Shown here piece by piece: positions 42,719-57,907 of a stretch of 64,000 bases of DNA. The translations under genes and the position numbers were made by a program. The notes under the pieces were generated by a model. The model ran no database searches and had not been told where the DNA came from. It worked only from the letters and a program-made list of their open reading frames with translations. The stretch's first letter is position 1, and every line of letters begins with the position of its first letter. The stretch comes from Alphaproteobacteria bacterium (GTDB lineage Bacteria; Pseudomonadota; Alphaproteobacteria; Micavibrionales; Micavibrionaceae). Location: positions 62,001 to 126,000 of the forward strand of contig JASMHE010000001.1 in NCBI GenBank assembly GCA_030750865.1, given 5' to 3'.

Positions 42719-43675
42719 ATGACAAAAACAATCAAAATAGGAACGCGCGGATCGGCGCTGGCACTGGTGCAGGCAGAAATGGTTTGCGCCGGTTTTCGTG
42801 AGCACCACCCCGATGTGGCCTGCGAGATTGTTGAAATCAGAACATCCGGTGACTGGAAGCCCGAACATGGCGAAACACGTTTGTCCGAAGCCGATGGCGG
42901 CAAGGGATTGTTTGCCAAAGAAATCGAAGCCGCGCTGATACGCGGCGATATCGATTGCGCCGTTCATTCCATGAAAGATATGCCCGCAGGACTGCCGGAC
43001 GGACTGATACTGGATTGTGTTCTGCCGCGCGCCGATGTACGCGATGCCGTTATTTTGAACGGACGCTGGCGGGGCCGCGTTGATTCACTGGATGCCTTGC
43101 CCAAAGATACGGTCGTTGCGACATCAAGCACGCGCCGCGCGGCATTTGTGTTGAATAAACGGCCCGATTTATCTGTGACGCCCATTCGCGGCAATGTTCC
43201 GACACGCATTGACAAGGTGCGCGGGCAGGATATGGCCGATGCGACCATTCTGGCTTATGCAGGGCTGGAACGTTTGCGGTTGCAGGATGATGTTGATTTT
43301 ATCTTGGACCCGCAGACCGATATGATTCCGGCCGCGTGTCAGGGGGCCGTCTGTATCGAGGTCCGCGAAGAAGACCGCGCGCTGCGCGATTTATTGAAGC
43401 CGTTAAATTGCCCCGAGTCTGATATTTGCGCGATGGCCGAACGGGCGGCGCTGCAAATTCTGGACGGGTCGTGTAAAACACCGATCGGGGCGTATGCCAT
43501 GCTGGACGGGCAGACGCTTGATCTGGTTGTGGCGGTCTTGTCATTGGACGGGACAGAGATTTACAAAGAGCAGATTACGGCTTCTGTCACCGGACGCGCC
43601 GATGCCATTGCCGCCGGCGCGGCATGCGGCCGTAAATTAAAGCAAGTGGTTCCCGATCATTGTCTGACATGTTAG
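42719..43675 (+). CDS. hemC: Porphobilinogen deaminase (hydroxymethylbilane synthase)
   Basis: Links four porphobilinogens into hydroxymethylbilane. KIGTRGSALALVQAE starts the fold, AVHSMKDMP and STRRAA follow, and the dipyrromethane cofactor Cys is in LDGSCKTPIGAY (C252). 318 residues. hemD follows after 13 bases. Confidence 0.96.
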   Translation: MTKTIKIGTRGSALALVQAEMVCAGFREHHPDVACEIVEIRTSGDWKPEHGETRLSEADGGKGLFAKEIEAALIRGDIDCAVHSMKDMPAGLPDGLILDCVLPRADVRDAVILNGRWRGRVDSLDALPKDTVVATSSTRRAAFVLNKRPDLSVTPIRGNVPTRIDKVRGQDMADATILAYAGLERLRLQDDVDFILDPQTDMIPAACQGAVCIEVREEDRALRDLLKPLNCPESDICAMAERAALQILDGSCKTPIGAYAMLDGQTLDLVVAVLSLDGTEIYKEQITASVTGRADAIAAGAACGRKLKQVVPDHCLTC

Positions 43676-43688
43676 AATTGAAGATGTT

Positions 43689-44558
43689 ATGTCTTTGCCA
43701 TCCGTTCTTATAACACGCCCGCTGTCAGAGGCGATTGATTTTGCCGGTGATCTGGAAGCCGCGCTGGATGTAAAATCCCATGTTGTTCCCTTATTAAATA
43801 TCCGTCCTGTGACCTATGGGCAGGGGTTTGATACGGCGGCTTATGCGCCGGATCGTTATGATGGTGTGATCTTGACCAGTGTGAATGCCGTGCGGCATTT
43901 CCGCCGTCACATTGCCGCCTATACCCATTTGAAAGCCTTTTGTGTCGGCCCGCGTACAGCGCATTTCGCGCGCGAGGCAGGCTTTACCGATATTGTGGTT
44001 TCCCCGTCAGGGAATGCAGACGGGCTGATTGATGTGCTGGCCGGAAACACGCCCTATATAGTGGATCGTCCGCCATCGTCCGCCGCCGCCGGACCGCAGG
44101 GCGATGATTTGCCGGATGAACCGCCGGATGCGGTATCGGATCAACCATCGGCAGATGCGCCGCGCAAGGAAAGCGGCCCGCGCCGTTATTTGTATTTGTG
44201 CGGGCAACATGTCAGCCGTGATATTCAGGGGCTGCTGGAGGATAAAGACCCGTCCGCGCAGGTTGATGTGCTGGTTGTGTATGAGGCCGCCGAAGCCACG
44301 TATGACCGCGCCGTACTGGAAGACTATATTCTGGGCGGCGAGATTGATATTTTGACGATTTTCTCGTCCCGTACGTCTTTGATTCTAAAAGATATAATTC
44401 TCCGCGAGCGTTATCAGGCAAGCCTTAGCACAATAAAACTCTTGTCAATTAGCGATTCAGTGGTAAAGTGCCTTCAGGATCTTCCCTGGCAGGATGTACG
44501 TGTCGCGTCGCGGCCGGACAGAGAGGGGATGATCGCCTTGATTGCAGAGTCCATTTAA
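43689..44558 (+). CDS. hemD: Uroporphyrinogen-III synthase with a low-complexity insert
   Basis: Cyclises hydroxymethylbilane to uroporphyrinogen III. N-terminal VLITRPLSEAIDFAGDLE, the mid motif VILTSVNAVRHF and the C-terminal ILTIFSSRTSLILKDI fit this poorly conserved family. The length of 289 residues exceeds the usual 230-260 because of about 40 Pro/Asp/Ala-rich residues (about 120-160) in the linker between the two lobes. Confidence 0.88.
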   Translation: MSLPSVLITRPLSEAIDFAGDLEAALDVKSHVVPLLNIRPVTYGQGFDTAAYAPDRYDGVILTSVNAVRHFRRHIAAYTHLKAFCVGPRTAHFAREAGFTDIVVSPSGNADGLIDVLAGNTPYIVDRPPSSAAAGPQGDDLPDEPPDAVSDQPSADAPRKESGPRRYLYLCGQHVSRDIQGLLEDKDPSAQVDVLVVYEAAEATYDRAVLEDYILGGEIDILTIFSSRTSLILKDIILRERYQASLSTIKLLSISDSVVKCLQDLPWQDVRVASRPDREGMIALIAESI

Positions 44559-44701
44559 ACTGTTTTTCACCAAAACATATCAGTAAAGCGTATTCTGCAA
44601 GCAGGTGAAGCACACGACATAGAGCGTATGCATCCGGCGGATAGAAACAGACGTACAACAACCCTGCAATAACGGGACAGCATGATAATGGGGACGAACC
44701 T

Positions 44702-47089
44702 ATGAGTACACAAAATTCAGGTCAGAATATCGACAATGCAACAGAAATTATCGAGCGTTTCGGCGGCATCCGTCCGATGGCAAAGAAAATCGGTGTCGCG
44801 GTGACGACGATTCAAGGCTGGAAAAAACGGGATTCGATTCCGGCAAACCGCAGAGGGCATCTGTTGAAAATGGCCGGTCTGCATGATGTTGATTTGTCTG
44901 ATTTGGTGCAGGGCGCTCCGCCCGTGGCCGGCGCAAGCGCGGAAACAGCAGGTGCAGGTGAGAATACAACCGCACAGCGCGGCGATACGGATACCCCGCG
45001 TGAGGCGGCGACACAGGACACGCATACACAAGACAAACAACAAGATACACAAGATGTGGGCGCGCAAGATATAGACGCGCAAAATGCCCGGACATCTGCC
45101 CCGACATCGCAGTCACAATCAAGTGCGCCGTCCGGATCGGAAACACGTCCGCAGTCAGGTTCACAATCAGGGGATGCGCCGTCACGGGATGTGCCGTTAT
45201 CGGCCCGGCCGGATGCCCCGCGTGAGGCAGCATCATCACAATCGTCATCATCTTCTGCACCGTCCGCACCATCACAGCAGCGTGCGGCGGCGTCTTCGCA
45301 TCGTCAGGAACGCACACAGCAGGGCGGCAACGGACAAGAGGGCAGACAAGGCAACAGACCGCGCAATACGGGCAGCCGTCAGGACCAAGCCCGTCGCCGT
45401 AACGCGGCCATGTTGAATGAAATGAACAAGGCCCAATCCATCATGAGTGGTAAGACAATGGTGGCATGGTCGGTCGGTCTGGTCATTGTGCTGGCGATCG
45501 TGGCGGCACTGTTGTTCTGGCCCGTGCAGAATGAAACAAAACAGAATGCGCGCCGCATTGCCGATCTGGATAATCAGGTCAATGCCGTGAAAGAAAAGCA
45601 GTCTTTGTTCCAGTCATTGGTGCCCGAAGATTTGAAAACACGGGTCGATAATGTGAAAAAGACAGCGCAGGATTTGCAAAATCAGGTACAAACCATCAAA
45701 ACGCAGACAAATGAATTGCGTGAAACGGCATCGATCCTGATGGATAGCGAAGCCGGATCGCTGACAGACCGTCTGGCGATGCTGGAATCACGTCTTGAAA
45801 CAATGTCACAAGGTACGGATATGGAATTGGTCATGGGGCGTATTGATGCGTTGCAGACCAACTTTGCAGGGCAGCAGAAATTACAGGATACGGTGGACGA
45901 GCTGGCCGTATTGTTCGCCAATACCAAAGGCCAATCCGGTCAAATGGCCGGTCAAATGGACAGCCAGCAGGCGCAAAGCGCGATTGCGTCCATGATGGGC
46001 GGCGATCCGCAGCAAAGCAGTGCGGTAACAAATGGCGCGGCAGACACAGCCGCCGCAACGGATGCACCGGAAACGGTTGAAGAGGCACTGGCCGAAGCGC
46101 AAGAGGGTGACGGCGCGTTATCGGAAACATTGCATGGCGTGTCCAAAACGGATTTGAAGGCGGCCGCATATTTGATCGGGCTGAGTAAATTCCGCCAGAC
46201 AACACGCCGCAGCAAGACACCACTGACCGAAGATCTGGATTTGATTTACCGGATGGTGGATGAAGATGATACCGAATTGCGCGCCGCGATTGAACGTTTG
46301 GCACCGCAGGCAGAGCGCGGCGTTTTAACGCCCGACGGTTTGTCTGGCCAGTTCAAAGGGCTTGCCGGTGATATTGTTGTATCGTCGTTGAAGGGAGAAG
46401 ATATCTCTTTGAAAGATCGCGCCAATGCACGCTTGCATGATGTGCTGAAGGTGGAAAAAGACGGCGAGATGCTGACCGGTACAGACACGCAGGTGACGGT
46501 TGAACGCGCACAGGCCTATCTGGATGAAGGCAACATCGAAGCGGCGCTGGCCGAATTGAAAACACTGGATGGTGCGGCCGCCGAAGAAGCCGCCCCGTTC
46601 ATGGAAGAAGCCGAAATGACATTGGCTGCACAACAAGTGCAGGCTTTGCTGGGTGATAAAATCTTATCGCACTTTGGCGGCGGTTTGCCGGGTGGCGCTC
46701 TGTCGGGGAATGGCGGCGCGTCCACTGCGCCCGTGTCAGCCGATTTCAGCACCGAAGATTTGCCGTTCCAGACAGTGGACGGTTTGATCGGCACAGTGCA
46801 GCGCGGCACATCCATGCAGAACAAAGTCCTGCGTGATGATGAGTCCGGCGTCAGTATTTTGCCACGCGGACAAAATCTGCCTGTCGATTTGAAGAGCATG
46901 TTGCCCGGTAGCATGGGCGGATCGCAGCCGATCCGTCTGCCGACCGCGACAGACCCCGCTTATCAAAATCAAAACCAGACAGCGCCGCAACAGACACAGC
47001 CGCAAACACAGCAGCAGCCGTCAGGCGACAATACAATGTCTGTGACACCGGCCACGCCTGCGACACCAACGCAGGATTCTGCGCAATGA
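44702..47089 (+). CDS. Mic60/mitofilin-like membrane protein with N-terminal helix-turn-helix
   Basis: 795 residues. Residues about 15-55 (FGGIRPMAKKIGVAVTTIQG, then W-K-K-R-D-S-I-P) look like a Cro/YdaS-type helix-turn-helix. Residues 70-230 are disordered (Gln, Ser, Pro, Thr). One transmembrane helix lies at about 254-275 (MVAWSVGLVIVLAIVAALLF), then a coiled coil (about 280-390) and a mitofilin-like C-terminal part with AQAYLDEGNIEAALAELKTL. Alphaproteobacterial mic60 (COG4223) characteristically follows hemD and shapes intracytoplasmic or envelope membranes. Placement and architecture support this; the helix-turn-helix is unusual. Confidence 0.75.
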   Translation: MSTQNSGQNIDNATEIIERFGGIRPMAKKIGVAVTTIQGWKKRDSIPANRRGHLLKMAGLHDVDLSDLVQGAPPVAGASAETAGAGENTTAQRGDTDTPREAATQDTHTQDKQQDTQDVGAQDIDAQNARTSAPTSQSQSSAPSGSETRPQSGSQSGDAPSRDVPLSARPDAPREAASSQSSSSSAPSAPSQQRAAASSHRQERTQQGGNGQEGRQGNRPRNTGSRQDQARRRNAAMLNEMNKAQSIMSGKTMVAWSVGLVIVLAIVAALLFWPVQNETKQNARRIADLDNQVNAVKEKQSLFQSLVPEDLKTRVDNVKKTAQDLQNQVQTIKTQTNELRETASILMDSEAGSLTDRLAMLESRLETMSQGTDMELVMGRIDALQTNFAGQQKLQDTVDELAVLFANTKGQSGQMAGQMDSQQAQSAIASMMGGDPQQSSAVTNGAADTAAATDAPETVEEALAEAQEGDGALSETLHGVSKTDLKAAAYLIGLSKFRQTTRRSKTPLTEDLDLIYRMVDEDDTELRAAIERLAPQAERGVLTPDGLSGQFKGLAGDIVVSSLKGEDISLKDRANARLHDVLKVEKDGEMLTGTDTQVTVERAQAYLDEGNIEAALAELKTLDGAAAEEAAPFMEEAEMTLAAQQVQALLGDKILSHFGGGLPGGALSGNGGASTAPVSADFSTEDLPFQTVDGLIGTVQRGTSMQNKVLRDDESGVSILPRGQNLPVDLKSMLPGSMGGSQPIRLPTATDPAYQNQNQTAPQQTQPQTQQQPSGDNTMSVTPATPATPTQDSAQ

Positions 47090-47475
47090 AATTGAAAGAG
47101 ATCGAGGGCACATATTCGATTTTACGATATGCGCCGGATGAGAAGATTCCGGACTGGGTCTATCAAAGCGGTTTTCTTTCCGTATCCCGTACCGACGAGG
47201 AATTGTCCATTGTCTGTGATGCGGATGCGGTGCAAGGCGCACAAGGCACAGGAGGGGCTCAAGACCGCGAAGATGACTGGAAATGCCTGAAGGTGCAAGG
47301 CCCGCTCGACTTTTCTTTGACGGGTATTTTGTCGTCAATCGCATCGCCGCTGGCAGATGCCAAAATCAGTATCTTTGCGATTTCAACGTTCGATACGGAT
47401 TATGTGATGCTGAAAAGCGATCATCTCGGCACGGCAAAACAGACTCTGCGGACCGCCGGGTTTGACGTTGTATAA
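47086..47475 (+). CDS. ACT-domain (CASTOR/ACT_7-like) protein
   Basis: 129 residues. The start LKEIEGTYSILRYAPDEKIPDW and the end ISIFAISTFDTDYVMLKSDHLG are typical of the tandem-ACT family (PF13840 type) that binds amino acids. A polar insert (about residues 45-60, QGAQGTGGAQDRED) is present. Its ATG overlaps the preceding stop by four bases, so it is translationally coupled to the Mic60-like gene. Confidence 0.87.
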   Translation: MKLKEIEGTYSILRYAPDEKIPDWVYQSGFLSVSRTDEELSIVCDADAVQGAQGTGGAQDREDDWKCLKVQGPLDFSLTGILSSIASPLADAKISIFAISTFDTDYVMLKSDHLGTAKQTLRTAGFDVV

Positions 47476-47806: not shown

Positions 47807-50617
47807 TCAGTCTTCCAGATCGTCGAGGAAGATTCCTGTGATGGCAAGATTGCTGAGAATCTGGCTGAAGTCACGGGCGGTTTGCATGAATGTCATTGGC
47901 TGCGGATCGGCCGGAACGACAATGGTTGATCCCGGCGGGATGAAGACCTTGTTATGATTCCATGACCCGATGGCCAGCGGTTCGGCACTGCCGTCCGGAT
48001 AGAGGACGAAGGTACGGTTTTTATCGGCATCAAAGCTGTATCCGCCAGCCTCGGCCACGTAATCGGCCGCATCTTTATCATCGCGGAATTGCAATTCGGC
48101 CGGCGAGAGCACTTCACCGCTGACGCGGACCGTTAGCGGACGGCGTGGCACATAAATGCGATCACCTGTTTCCAGCAGGATATCAAGTTCGGGCTGTACA
48201 TCCAGCACGGCCGGATCGGCTTCGACCGTGATGCGGCCGACGGCGCGGATATTTTTCAGCTCGGCAATCAATTGTTGCATCATGGTCATTTGTGTCGGTG
48301 ATGGCGGGTCTTCGTTATGTGGATCGGTGGCCGTGGCCAGCGCCCGTTGCAATTCGCGGGCGGCGGCTTTGAAGCGGGATTCTTCGGCCCGCCGTGAACT
48401 TTCGCGGCTGAAAATCGTGCCATCGGCATAGGCTTCGTTCGTAAGACCGCCCGCGCGCTCCAGCAGGTCGGACAGCTTGTCCCCCGGCATCAGATCATAG
48501 CGCCCCGGATTGCGGACTTCGCCGACAATCTCGACCGCGTTTTCGGTGATCTTCTTGAATTTTTGTTTGATGTGCACGGAATCGCCGGCCGTCAGAATGA
48601 CATCTGCCGGATCGGTTTGCGCAAAATTGACGGTGGTGCGGCGCGTGCCGCTTTTGCCGCCGGTCTGGTCGCCTTCGCCGCTTTGGGCCGAGGTCAGTTC
48701 GATGTTGTTGACGCTGGCCTCAAGGGTCATGCCGCCAGCCACCGCGATGAGCTGTTCTAGGGATAGACCCGCCGCGACCGGAAACGCACCGCCGCGTCTG
48801 ACCGCGCCGCGAATAAAGGCCGTTCGTTCGCGCAGGAAATCAACCAGCACGTCATTATGGATGTAATCCTGATTATCGCTTTCATCGTAAAGCGGGCGGT
48901 TCATCTCATCAATATAGAGCTGCTTGCCTGCGGCGGGTTCCATTGATCCGAGTTCCACAGGGGTGCGGGCATAATCTTTTTCAATCTCTTTGCGCGGTTT
49001 TTGCAGATTTAAAATCTGGGTACGCGAAAACAGATGGACGATATCGCCGTCTTCAAGTTTGCGGTCGAATTTGTCTTGCAAGACTTGCAAGGGCGGGAAA
49101 TCAATATATTTTGCCGCCATGACATCATTATCCCAGCGTTCGATCACGCCGATCAACGGATAAATATCGCCGCCAAAGACCGATTCGCTGTTGATCAGGG
49201 CCGCAAGGCTTTTTGTTTTGGATAAATCATACAGGCCCGGTTTACGGGTGTGACCGGTCAGTTCGACTGTGCCTTTGCGTAGTTCTGTTGACGGGGTAAC
49301 GCGCAGAATACTGCCGTCCCCGAAAATCGGATCATAATGATTGCTGATTTCGCGGACATGTTCGGTGCCGTCGGTTGATAATGCAAATTGCATGAAACGG
49401 TTTTCACCGGGGTTTAACAGCCCGCCCGCCATTGTCAGGACATCATCAAGGGGCAGCGCGGGCGAGGCGTCTGTTTTGGTGTGGGCCACGCCGTGCACAA
49501 CGGGTTTGATTTCATAGATGCCGGGGCGTTTGACAGCGCCGCTGATGGCAAAGGTCGGCCCGATCGGCGGAACGATCAAACGGTCGCCATCGCGTAAATT
49601 CAGATCCATATGGGTGCTGCCGTGCATAAACAAACTATACAAATCAATGACGGTACTGCGGCCGTTGCGTACCAGTTTGATTTGCCGTAGCGATCCTGTT
49701 TTATCAATGCCGCCTGCGTCCATCAGAGCATCAATGACGGTGTGGAAAACGGTCATTGTTTTGCGGCCCGGATTTTCGACATGTCCCATGACCAGCACAT
49801 CGATTTGGCGCACGGCATCGAGCGAGACAAAAACATCGGTGTTGTAATAGCGGCTGACAAGATTTTGCAGCTGTTCGTGAACGTTGCCAAGCGGTCGTCC
49901 GGCGGCTGTGATCGGGGGTAAATCCTCGATAATCAATTGTCCGTTGCCGTGAATGACATATTGGCCGCTGGTTTGTCGTTGTCCGCGAAAAATGACGGTC
50001 AGGCGGTCGCCCGCGCCGAGAATAAAATCATCCTGCACTGTGCCGGATGGGACGCTGTAACGCGGGCTATCTTGCGCGGCGGCTGCCCCGTTATGGCGGT
50101 CGGCCGTGTTGCCGCCCGTGGCTTGCGGGCTGTGGATGGGGCTATCCGGCGTTGCAGGAGCAAGGCGGGTGATCTCTTGTTCAAACAAATCATAGCCGAA
50201 TTGGTGCAGCTCATCGACAATGCGCTGGGAGTAATAATCTTCGAGTTTGGACGGCGGCGGGGCCGAGGGTTCCAGCTTGTTCAACTGGCGGGCCAGTGCC
50301 TTCATTTCAGTCGGGCTGAGGGTATTGATCCGGTTCTGTAATTGATCATATTGCACATTTTGTGCGTGGCCGTCCTGCATCAAATGGCGGCGGCGGTCGC
50401 GCTCGGAGGCGAATTGATGGCGCTGGTTGGTGCGCTGGGGCTGGTCGTTGTCATAGCTGTGCCCTTTGGGCACATAGCCTTGTGTTTCAAGCCACGGCAC
50501 ATAGGTTTGCGGCAGAACATTGGGCTGGGCCTGTGCGGGCGTGCTTGCGATCAAGGCTGCAAGACCGAGCAGGCAAATAAAGCTGTAAAAAACAAAGTGT
50601 CGCATGAAGATGGACAA
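47807..50617 (-). CDS. SLBB-domain polysaccharide export protein
   Basis: 936 residues. Signal peptide (about 1-30, ending TPAQAQ). The polysaccharide export domain starts near residue 194 (DDFILGAGDRLTVIFRG), followed by at least four soluble-ligand-binding beta-grasp (SLBB) units, for example VLVMGHVENPGRKTM, FAISGAVKRPGIYEI and VEIVGEVRNPGRYDL. It resembles the capsule exporter Wza/OtnA families but is larger. No glycosyltransferase or chain-length regulator is nearby, so the polymer is unknown. Single-gene unit. Confidence 0.88.
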   Translation of the reverse strand: MSIFMRHFVFYSFICLLGLAALIASTPAQAQPNVLPQTYVPWLETQGYVPKGHSYDNDQPQRTNQRHQFASERDRRRHLMQDGHAQNVQYDQLQNRINTLSPTEMKALARQLNKLEPSAPPPSKLEDYYSQRIVDELHQFGYDLFEQEITRLAPATPDSPIHSPQATGGNTADRHNGAAAAQDSPRYSVPSGTVQDDFILGAGDRLTVIFRGQRQTSGQYVIHGNGQLIIEDLPPITAAGRPLGNVHEQLQNLVSRYYNTDVFVSLDAVRQIDVLVMGHVENPGRKTMTVFHTVIDALMDAGGIDKTGSLRQIKLVRNGRSTVIDLYSLFMHGSTHMDLNLRDGDRLIVPPIGPTFAISGAVKRPGIYEIKPVVHGVAHTKTDASPALPLDDVLTMAGGLLNPGENRFMQFALSTDGTEHVREISNHYDPIFGDGSILRVTPSTELRKGTVELTGHTRKPGLYDLSKTKSLAALINSESVFGGDIYPLIGVIERWDNDVMAAKYIDFPPLQVLQDKFDRKLEDGDIVHLFSRTQILNLQKPRKEIEKDYARTPVELGSMEPAAGKQLYIDEMNRPLYDESDNQDYIHNDVLVDFLRERTAFIRGAVRRGGAFPVAAGLSLEQLIAVAGGMTLEASVNNIELTSAQSGEGDQTGGKSGTRRTTVNFAQTDPADVILTAGDSVHIKQKFKKITENAVEIVGEVRNPGRYDLMPGDKLSDLLERAGGLTNEAYADGTIFSRESSRRAEESRFKAAARELQRALATATDPHNEDPPSPTQMTMMQQLIAELKNIRAVGRITVEADPAVLDVQPELDILLETGDRIYVPRRPLTVRVSGEVLSPAELQFRDDKDAADYVAEAGGYSFDADKNRTFVLYPDGSAEPLAIGSWNHNKVFIPPGSTIVVPADPQPMTFMQTARDFSQILSNLAITGIFLDDLED

Positions 50618-55255: not shown

Positions 55256-57907
55256 CTATTTCGAGCGGCAGCATGAGTATGTTGTCGAGTCATTCGCCGG
55301 TGAGAACTGCCAGTAAGAGTATGTCTCTGACGGTCCTTCATGTTCCGGATAGTTGCCGTCAACATAGTAACCGAAGCAACGTCCGTCGTTGGTCAGGGTC
55401 TGGGCCGCATGTCCGTCTTGCGGTGTGTAAACCCCGTCAGCGATCATCTTGTTGAGACACTGATCGGCTCCGGCCGTCGGTACACAGGCTCCGTCATCAC
55501 GTTCGTACCCTTCGCGGCATGTAAAGTCACAAGCCTTCTTGGTGTCGTTCGTGAAGCTGTAGTACGATGTCGTACCCGGATCACTGCTGAGCCATGTTTC
55601 AGGATCGTCTTCCGTCAGATAGCGCCAGCCACCATCGTGCGTTGTTTTCGCACTCCAGTACCCACCGTTACCGTGGAATTCCTCGATCGGTGCATTGATG
55701 CTCTGACAATTATTATAGACCCATTTCTCACATTTATTGTTACATGAGTCGCTGTTATTGCCATTGCCGTCATCACAGGCTTCGCTGCCTTCGCGTACAC
55801 CGTTACCGCATGTCTGGCGGAGATATGTACATTGTTCTGACGTTGCGCCGCCATTGATGCCTTCACAGACCCATGTGAAGCTGTCACCGCGATCTTTCAT
55901 GGCAGCAACACTACCGGCAATACAGGCTTCGCCCGGCAGAATATCGTCCGGTGAGCTATATTGATGGCCTGGCATTGTTGTCGCAAGACCGCATGTGCCG
56001 TCAATCGGTGCCGTATCACACCCAAGATCGATCAGACCTTCCATCAGCGATGCGGCCAGATTCGATGAGTTTGATGTAATCATCTTCTGTGAGAAGCGAT
56101 CGCCAAGACCGGCACTTCTGAATTTATCCTTATAGAAGTTTGCAGCGCCGCTTGTTGTCAGGGCAATCACCCGCACATTATGTTCGCGCATCTTGGCGGC
56201 GAGTGTGCTCATGGTGCCGTATTTGCCGCCTAAGTGTGATGTTGCATCCGTAATCATGACGATAACCATGCCGTCTTCTTTGTTAGTTTGCGGTGCAAAA
56301 TCATCGATCGTTCTGATCATGGCGTGAATCTGCGTTTCCGGATAGTCGCCGCCACCCCACGGGCTCAGGCTGCCATATGTGTTAAGCAGCGCGGCTTTTT
56401 GTGTGTCCAGATCGGTGAAACCGCGATCAATGCGGTAGCCGTATGGCGCTCCGAAGTCGGAGTAACTTGTAATACCGACATCCCAGCCTTTGAACAATGT
56501 GTTGTTGAACAGATATGTCAGGCCGTTTCGTGTATGTTGGATATCATCGCCGAAACTGCCGGATGTATCCTGCACGATCACCATTTTATCTGTGCTGAAC
56601 AAACGGTCACAGTTTTGACCTTGTACAAGACCTGTACAATAAGCTTTGGACGGGCCGACATCGGCATTACAGGTCCAGAACCACGGACCGCCGCCTGTAA
56701 CGCTTTGAACGGTCGAGTTCGCGCTACACAGATCACCACTATATGGAGACCCGCTTGTTGTCAGTTCGTCTTTGTTACGGAATTCTTGTAAGTGTGCCGC
56801 GCCGCACTGTGCTTCGCGGGAAACTTTGGCCTGACATGTTGCATCTTGGGCCAATGTAGAGCTTTGTGCGTCATGCCCGACGCCGCGACAGGTCCATGTA
56901 AAATATGTTTGTGCGCTGTTCATGACAGGCGTGGTCGGCACGCCGTAGGCGCACTGATATTGTTCGTCGATGTCACCTTTTGTGGCAAAGGCTTCGGTTG
57001 CTGCCTGACCGCACACGCCGTCAATTTTGTAATCGGCTTCGATGTGCACGTTTTCACAGACGTTGATTTTGGCCTTGTAACAGGCGTTATAAACCTCGAG
57101 CGGTTCTTGATCCATGAATTGCTTGAAGTCGCCGTAATTACCGGGCGGACCGCTTGGCATCATCATGTCGCGTGATCCGCTACTGCGTTTTAAATAACGC
57201 AGACGGTAATTTTCGCTGTGGCCCGGTGTCCCCAGATTTGAAAGACTGCTGCTGCCGAGTTTATCATATTCGAAATAACTTTTGACCGATGTGTCCAGTC
57301 TGAACATATCGTCGTCCGTATCACCATCAATGCCTGAGCCGAATGCACAGAACTCTTTTGACGATGGTGAGGAATATCCGCTGGACGGACATTGTGAAGA
57401 TGGCTCAATCGAGACTTCGTCTTTTGTCAGCAGTTTTGCGCCGACGATTTGCACGGGTGCTCCGCCGTTCAGCAAGTGGCCGGCACTATAGACATTGCGG
57501 ACCTTGATACTGTCCCAACAGGTTGCGTTCGGTGCGATGAATTTAATATCCCAGCCGCCGTTTTGGTTGGCCTCGTCATCACATTCCACCCAGACATCGC
57601 CCGGCGTGTTGGAAACGCCTTTGTCCAGAATCCAGTATTGCAGGCCCTGACGGTCCTGCGGTTTTTCGGCGTAATTATATTTAATGCGGGCGCGGTGATG
57701 TTCGTAACTGTAATCTTCGATCTCGATCGGGTTGCCCGAACCGCGTAAATAAGTCGGCGGCTTGTAATCATAGTCGTTCATCTTCGGCGGCGTGCGGTTG
57801 AAATCAGCACTGCGCGCTTCGGTCGGATATGTCGTTAGCACAATGACGGCAAGACAACATATGAATGTGAATATGCCTGCGTTCTGAATTGCTTTATGTG
57901 TCATCAT
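55256..57907 (-). CDS. Large secreted vWA-domain protein with cysteine-rich repeats
   Basis: 883 residues with an N-terminal signal (about 1-31). A 260-residue region is followed by two cysteine modules (starting near DGVCG, about 298, and EAQCG, about 365). Then comes a von Willebrand A domain (about 437-625) with MIDAS DTSGS and ITDATSH, a third cysteine module (DGTCG, about 636) and a DUF4215-like CGNGVREGSEACDDGNGNNS unit (about 700). The modules share C-G, a W-x-C and a final C. Likely an adhesin or surface-exposed binding protein; the ligand is unknown. Single gene, divergent from the rRNA operon. Confidence 0.82.
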   Translation of the reverse strand: MMTHKAIQNAGIFTFICCLAVIVLTTYPTEARSADFNRTPPKMNDYDYKPPTYLRGSGNPIEIEDYSYEHHRARIKYNYAEKPQDRQGLQYWILDKGVSNTPGDVWVECDDEANQNGGWDIKFIAPNATCWDSIKVRNVYSAGHLLNGGAPVQIVGAKLLTKDEVSIEPSSQCPSSGYSSPSSKEFCAFGSGIDGDTDDDMFRLDTSVKSYFEYDKLGSSSLSNLGTPGHSENYRLRYLKRSSGSRDMMMPSGPPGNYGDFKQFMDQEPLEVYNACYKAKINVCENVHIEADYKIDGVCGQAATEAFATKGDIDEQYQCAYGVPTTPVMNSAQTYFTWTCRGVGHDAQSSTLAQDATCQAKVSREAQCGAAHLQEFRNKDELTTSGSPYSGDLCSANSTVQSVTGGGPWFWTCNADVGPSKAYCTGLVQGQNCDRLFSTDKMVIVQDTSGSFGDDIQHTRNGLTYLFNNTLFKGWDVGITSYSDFGAPYGYRIDRGFTDLDTQKAALLNTYGSLSPWGGGDYPETQIHAMIRTIDDFAPQTNKEDGMVIVMITDATSHLGGKYGTMSTLAAKMREHNVRVIALTTSGAANFYKDKFRSAGLGDRFSQKMITSNSSNLAASLMEGLIDLGCDTAPIDGTCGLATTMPGHQYSSPDDILPGEACIAGSVAAMKDRGDSFTWVCEGINGGATSEQCTYLRQTCGNGVREGSEACDDGNGNNSDSCNNKCEKWVYNNCQSINAPIEEFHGNGGYWSAKTTHDGGWRYLTEDDPETWLSSDPGTTSYYSFTNDTKKACDFTCREGYERDDGACVPTAGADQCLNKMIADGVYTPQDGHAAQTLTNDGRCFGYYVDGNYPEHEGPSETYSYWQFSPANDSTTYSCCRSK

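Follow-up and report, generated by a model that had tools for sequence, protein, structure and literature searches.

A Cro-like helix-turn-helix head on alphaproteobacterial Mic60 accompanies CGTACG sites beside its own gene and probably serves self-regulation

Mic60 is the major protein of the mitochondrial contact site and cristae organizing system (MICOS), has homologues in Alphaproteobacteria and is central to the origin of cristae; a role of the alphaproteobacterial proteins in membrane bending and internal membranes has been reported, and membrane shaping is the only function given for them in the accessible text of that source (PMC12136173). Here we analyse a mic60 homologue at positions 44702..47089 (+ strand) of a 64,000-nucleotide stretch of contig JASMHE010000001.1 (hereafter, the window), which belongs to a Micavibrionaceae genome assembled in 14 contigs and 2.19 Mb. 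With the alphaproteobacterial Mic60 family (COG4223, PF09731) it shares the position behind hemC and hemD, one membrane helix, a coiled coil and a mitofilin domain; it differs in carrying, in addition, an N-terminal helix-turn-helix (HTH) and CGTACG sites.

DNA-binding heads on proteins that have another job, or that reside in the membrane, are familiar from trigger enzymes and membrane-bound one-component regulators, among them PutA, CadC and ToxR; here, in contrast, the partner is a homologue of a cristae organizer, and the head resembles Cro and is not winged. RacA, which ties the Bacillus chromosome to the cell pole, likewise joins an HTH head to a coiled coil, but it is not known to have a membrane helix or mitofilin domain, and the likeness of the two heads is a weak profile match (E 0.33). 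Fold and helix arrangement are shared with the phage Cro proteins of P22, N15 and Xfaso 1, although these are free small repressors, whereas the present head is fused to a membrane protein and has a different recognition helix. The head is a member, over cut-off, of NCBIfam family NF046037 (carph-isopro, a name that we take to stand for carbamoyl-phosphate and isopropylmalate), which bears no function and is found elsewhere on metabolic enzymes, but here on a membrane-shaping protein. A literature search, whose coverage mostly leaves out subscription papers and preprints, returned no paper on the carph-isopro domain name, on alphaproteobacterial Mic60 together with a helix-turn-helix, or on mitofilin together with uroporphyrinogen-III synthase, while wider queries brought up papers on Mic60 and membranes; the domain and Mic60 are each known separately, and an HTH-bearing Mic60 with CGTACG sites appears to be a new result of this sequence analysis.

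The window protein was confirmed as a true Mic60 homologue with an N-terminal HTH; its 795 residues comprise, in order, the HTH, a disordered linker, a membrane helix, coiled coils and a mitofilin domain, as delimited from the open reading frame, Pfam, NCBIfam and AlphaFold2. Pfam placed the Mitofilin domain (PF09731) at residues 502-650 (46205..46651, + strand) with 49.3 bits against a cut-off of 27.4 (E 5e-13), and a profile of 55 full-length relatives matched 7pv1, a solved MIC60-MIC19 structure, at E 3.4e-7, although mitofilin was absent among the Foldseek matches listed for the full-length model. In that AlphaFold2 model, the HTH had a predicted local distance difference test (pLDDT) score of 95-98, residues 82-225 (44945..45376, + strand) were almost wholly disordered, with pLDDT below 50 for nearly all, and most of residues 459-659 were confident. 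Helices were modelled at residues 226-300, 309-347 and 388-431, the first of them long and holding the membrane segment (residues ~253-273; 45458..45520, + strand), which was assigned from the sequence, from this helix and from its shared position in homologues. The hydropathy of homologues likewise showed a single membrane helix followed by a coiled coil, the layout expected of Mic60. From HTH to membrane helix the gap is about 185 residues in the window protein and 38-177 (median 75) in 122 homologues.

The HTH occupies residues 13-66 (44738..44899, + strand), as judged by profile, model and Cro folds; NF046037 itself matched residues 15-66 with 58.3 bits against a cut-off of 38 (E 6e-16), and the Pfam families P22_Cro and YdaS_toxin matched weakly, both under cut-off. 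AlphaFold2 gave helices at residues 13-20, 23-30, 34-43 and 48-60 in a Cro-type fold. In a second fold comparison N15 Cro came out best, aligning over 61 residues at Z 6.8; its DNA-bound form reached Z 6.4. Z values of 6 to 7 are moderate, given how small the domain is. Profile matches to the phage Cro structures 3bd1 and 1rzs were weak (E 0.03-0.05), the RacA head 5i41 was also among the PDB matches (E 0.33), and 47 of 48 heads were matched by one PHROGs phage regulator family. When the 48 heads were aligned, 11 of 63 columns proved invariant: G, G, R and P leading up to and opening helix 2, followed by Q, G, W and R, which are recognition-helix positions, and by P, R and A. Sixteen residues were invariant in a set of 81 heads, and full-length alignments held only two to three invariant residues outside the head, the start methionine aside. 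The recognition helix itself, VTTIQGWKKR (residues 34-43; 44801..44830, + strand), is near invariant across homologues by alignments and model.

A preliminary description of this gene, made from the letters of the window, had placed it in the mic60 (COG4223) position after hemC-hemD, which Pfam bore out, and had given it a transmembrane, coiled-coil and mitofilin-like layout, with which the PF09731 match, the model helices and the 7pv1 match agree. It had named as telling against itself a C-terminal region unrelated to mitofilin, or an N-terminal domain without DNA-contact residues across homologues; the family profile found 7pv1 (E 3e-7), and the recognition-helix residues were kept in the 48 aligned heads. 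Its Cro/YdaS-type domain and disordered joining stretch both stood, but the domain lies at residues 13-66 rather than in the first 55, and about 185 residues, rather than 160, separate it from the membrane helix.

Presence of the HTH was accompanied by a DNA word upstream of the gene. CGTAC was first picked out by eye in upstream stretches from the order and then tested in a class set consisting of 44 loci with mitofilin in the HTH frame and 61 mitofilin genes without HTH, two of the latter from one locus; at least two CGTAC/GTACG matches lay within 450 bp upstream in 35 of the 44 but in only 2 of the 61 (Fisher test, 4e-17). When no prior word was given, CGTAC emerged as the top 5-mer of the class loci (161 seen against 10.4 expected) and CGTACG as the top 6-mer. 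In HTH genomes the density of CGTAC/GTACG reached 5-8 per kb immediately upstream of the head, while HTH-less loci stayed at 0.2-0.7 per kb along their length. These word counts score each palindrome CGTACG twice, and the cluster counts score each GTAC once. By the latter count, 33 clusters of at least four sites in 400 bp were found across 50 HTH-Mic60 loci (the 44 plus six hem-position loci without a detected mitofilin domain), and none in 548 kb of HTH-less loci. In 27 of the 50 a cluster lay no more than 700 bp upstream of the head, and six more mostly overlap that stretch or lie just past it. Site-to-site distances in HTH-Mic60 loci were spread evenly over the three frames, so the sites are not an amino-acid motif. 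Upstream site density in the order was 4.1 per kb for the named loci, compared with 0.6-0.8 elsewhere; at least one site was present in 36 of 46 HTH-Mic60 loci, and none of five HTH-less Mic60 genes had any, the full upstream stretch being available for three of the five. Two loci in which the recognition helix of the HTH is broken (L268 and L275) had no sites. Since the recognition helix belongs to the most strongly conserved region of the protein and CGTAC(G) clusters accompany the HTH, the head has the look of a functional, sequence-specific DNA-binding domain.

In the window, hemC (42719..43675) and hemD (43689..44558), both on the + strand and identified by Pfam, precede mic60, and this neighbourhood of alphaproteobacterial Mic60 recurs in the relatives. 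A repeated-word search of upstream stretches from the order returned strong words over the hemD 3' end; these resolve into a promoter-like element, CTTGTG-N17-TAGAGT, present in 49 of 80 named loci and in none of the control stretches from the same loci. GTAC occurs at fixed offsets from the end of this element in the order relatives, mostly +2, +28, +26 and -99. In its place the window has CTTGTC-N17-TAAAGT in the hemD 3' end (44441..44469, + strand), assigned by comparison with relatives. GTAC sites stand in hemD as CCGTACT (44313..44316) and CCGTACG (44371..44374), the latter at offset -99 from the -10-like hexamer and favoured in relatives, at 44496..44499 as TGTACG (offset +26, likewise favoured), and between hemD and mic60 as ACGTACA (44653..44656). 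The weight of this putative element and of its sites comes from the comparison with relatives. In one locus (L090, 1516-3200), mic60 lies directly behind dnaA with no hemD near, and a non-coding promoter-like element keeps GTAC at +2 and +26. Two words enriched before hemC, GATGAAAC and ATTGAAAC, were considered as a regulatory repeat and dropped, because they appear to be the first codons of a divergent tsaD gene (a reading of codons, not a database match). Elsewhere in an HTH-Mic60 genome (L391, 2937-3011), five GTAC sites fall within 75 bp; one open reading frame of at least 150 residues lies nearby, and no HTH gene was found at that locus.

The survey of Mic60 proteins for the N-terminal domain that had been proposed found the HTH in 47 of 52 proteins extracted from relatives in the order and in at least 48 of 385 class genomes. 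Among relatives, 58 genomes were searched, that of the window being one of them, and 53 gave a match; the named relatives were found by an alignment query, none by a single-sequence query, and those with the head are mostly metagenome assemblies labelled Alphaproteobacteria bacterium or Micavibrio. For two genomes with an HTH-less Mic60 (G009 and G041), an HTH match lies on another contig (G041:C56:27052-27234 and G009:C47), one of them within a 74-residue open frame; contig breaks or split genes are the readings of this. Across the class, NF046037 matched in 115 of 385 genomes (over cut-off in 73) and mitofilin in 186; loci were fetched for 80 of the NF046037 places and 60 of the HTH-less mitofilin matches, taken down the lists and not randomly. 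HTH and mitofilin shared one frame in 44 of the fetched class loci, to which four order genomes add to give the lower bound of 48. HemD was fused as well in 12 of the 44, and some order relatives have single chains of HemD, HTH, membrane helix and mitofilin. In 78 of 80 named loci the mitofilin part was in frame with the head, the other two ending at a contig edge. The trait is patchily distributed over a 112-row HemC tree, with 20 changes against a shuffled mean of 38, a signal too weak to decide between gain and loss of the HTH.

The same head was found N-terminally fused to CarA, a crotonyl-CoA reductase-like dehydrogenase, SerA, NnrDE, aspartate carbamoyltransferase (PyrB), HisZ, ArgB and CoaBC, and outside the class to LeuA (enzyme-fusion loci L242, L246, L255, L237, L261, L274, L276, L277, L284, L285 and L353; some members of each enzyme group were scanned with Pfam and NCBIfam, and the others were grouped by head sequence, length and family code). 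Where NnrDE carries a head with the helix TT[VI]QGW, GTAC stood no more than 75 bp before the start codon in nine of nine genomes of one family (L400-L408), two of the nine having been scanned as NnrDE and the others assigned by match and length. Of the fusions and small proteins that bear other helices (CarA, crotonyl-CoA reductase, PyrB, HisZ, ArgB, CoaBC and four others), 23 were compared, and in 21 of them CGTAC/GTACG was absent upstream; the 23 rows exclude SerA (L255) and two NnrDE, and include the stand-alone small proteins L288-L290 and also L281, whose enzyme part was unscanned. Other palindromes preceded some of these genes: TGGGAA-N5-TTCCCA before the start of CarA in 3 of 4, and TTCAT-N5-ATGAA before that of HisZ in 3 of 5. 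Among the other HTH-enzyme fusions, 13 of 22 had inverted repeats near the start where 7.2 were expected; this is suggestive only, and the occurrence of the head on biosynthetic enzymes, some with inverted repeats, fits a portable self-regulating head. That so many such enzymes bear it points to a class of self-regulating alphaproteobacterial proteins that has attracted little notice.

Computation established the domain make-up, how widely it occurs across the class, how well the recognition helix is conserved and that the HTH goes together with CGTAC clusters; physical binding by the head, its cytoplasmic side and any signal from the periplasmic mitofilin part are predicted. We consider it probable that the protein is a membrane-anchored Mic60 with a sequence-specific, CGTACG-reading head, for which self-regulation is the likeliest role. 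Mic60 would sit in the inner membrane with its cytoplasmic N-terminus forming a sequence-specific DNA-binding head; that the head faces the cytoplasm is argued by the HemD-HTH-Mic60 chains, which join it to a cytoplasmic enzyme. The head would read the palindrome CGTACG, with core GTAC, at several sites of the hemD-mic60 junction around the promoter-like element in the hemD 3' end. A membrane-held Mic60 oligomer bound to these sites would tune transcription of mic60 and perhaps of the neighbouring hem genes (as to the direction, our guess is repression), and the bound state would also hold the mic60 locus at the membrane. Self-regulation is the plainest reading because the head is kept together with a DNA word beside its own gene and is chained to a membrane helix.

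Several observations weigh against self-regulation through CGTACG. The motif was initially noticed by eye in the order set; a scan of the window alone for promoter-like elements did not exceed shuffles (2 found, mean 1.0), and the window has a second cluster of four GTAC sites at 55505-55795. No site was found in 10 of 46 order loci (G022, G023 and G024 among them), and 11 of 50 HTH-Mic60 class loci had fewer than two matches, nine with the helix intact and two with it broken. The SerA of genome G119 (L255) has a TTVQGW helix and no CGTAC upstream. The HemC tree yields two independent pairs on starred branches, too few for a test, and the phylogenetic independence of the association is poorly resolved. 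The order sites often overlap hemD coding sequence, for which reason part of their phasing may be inherited. In the HemD-HTH-Mic60 fusions the sites fall within one open frame; a separate promoter need not exist there, and one would have to assume either an internal start or a different use for the sites.

The preliminary description had proposed that the protein tethers the chromosome to the membrane near the origin. Its 'near the origin' stood in part: parA, parB and mnmG lie in the window, with parAB 13 kb from mic60, but dnaA is on another contig of the genome. In 12 HTH genomes mic60 lay 13-713 kb from parB, and in 9 HTH-less genomes 110-1457 kb (single contigs were taken as circles, and a genome was excluded if the two genes were on separate contigs or if it gave no ParB match), and distances to dnaA were also widely spread; HTH and HTH-less genomes showed no difference in either, and the origin tether was rejected. 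Since the parB distance varies and it is at mic60 that the sites gather, such a role is not supported, and self-regulation, with tethering of the own locus as an unavoidable by-product, fits better. A broader version, in which the head serves mainly as an anchor in the manner of RacA and fastens the chromosome, by the mic60 locus or by some other place, to membrane sites organized by Mic60, strikes us as unlikely. It would account for a DNA-binding head on a membrane protein, for several sites per locus, some of them in hemD and 200-350 bp before the head, an uncommon placing for a simple operator, for the RacA head among the PDB matches of the profile, for parAB nearby in the window and for the mic60 that adjoins dnaA in L090; yet HTH genomes are no closer to parB than HTH-less ones, dnaA distances vary widely, and a triple-CGTAC search showed no dense set of sites elsewhere. 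Places with triple CGTAC numbered 0-10 per genome in 20 HTH genomes and 0-7 in 6 HTH-less genomes, the mic60 region being among them in several HTH genomes. A genome-wide regulon was likewise dropped after this search of 26 genomes and the reading of 20 further places, which, like the other clusters read, we took largely for coincidences in ordinary coding or rRNA-like sequence; no second HTH gene was found at the 20 further CGTAC places.

Alternatively, the CGTAC clusters might serve another, co-occurring regulator while the head does something else, such as binding a protein as the HTH head of RodZ binds MreB. The evidence is an association, some HTH-Mic60 loci with an intact helix lack sites, and HTH heads of membrane proteins can make protein contacts; nevertheless, we regard this as distinctly unlikely, given that the same recognition helix on NnrDE goes with the same site in all nine genomes, that all but two of the 23 proteins with other helices lack it, and that broken helices coincide with an absence of sites. 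The association with DNA sites speaks, though indirectly, against a RodZ-like head. A decayed prophage Cro domain, fused by chance and without function, is very improbable and was already disfavoured: although the folds nearest to it are those of phage Cro proteins, and most heads are matched by phage regulators, the head is the most conserved part of the protein, is present in nearly all of the order proteins extracted and has been retained across many families of the class.

If the self-regulating Mic60 proposed here is real, a CGTACG-binding head offers a testable link between membrane architecture and gene control. As a wider possibility, which we regard as doubtful, Mic60 of the ancestral type may be both a membrane shaper and a DNA-reading regulator in much of the Alphaproteobacteria, such that the mitofilin part senses the state of the inner membrane or of partners in the periplasm and passes it across the membrane to the CGTACG-reading head, which adjusts mic60 and heme genes and holds the locus at the membrane. 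Human MIC60 is reported to contact mitochondrial DNA and TFAM (PMC4303897), and the bacterial head is a possible counterpart to such contacts with the DNA and its transcription factors; if the wider possibility is true and the head is old in the class, it would be their bacterial forerunner.

Downstream of mic60, a small gene with ACT_7 and A9CJY8-like_N domains (47086-47475) overlaps the mic60 stop codon through ATGA, and beyond it, on the - strand (47807-50617), the window encodes a polysaccharide export protein of 936 residues with several SLBB domains.

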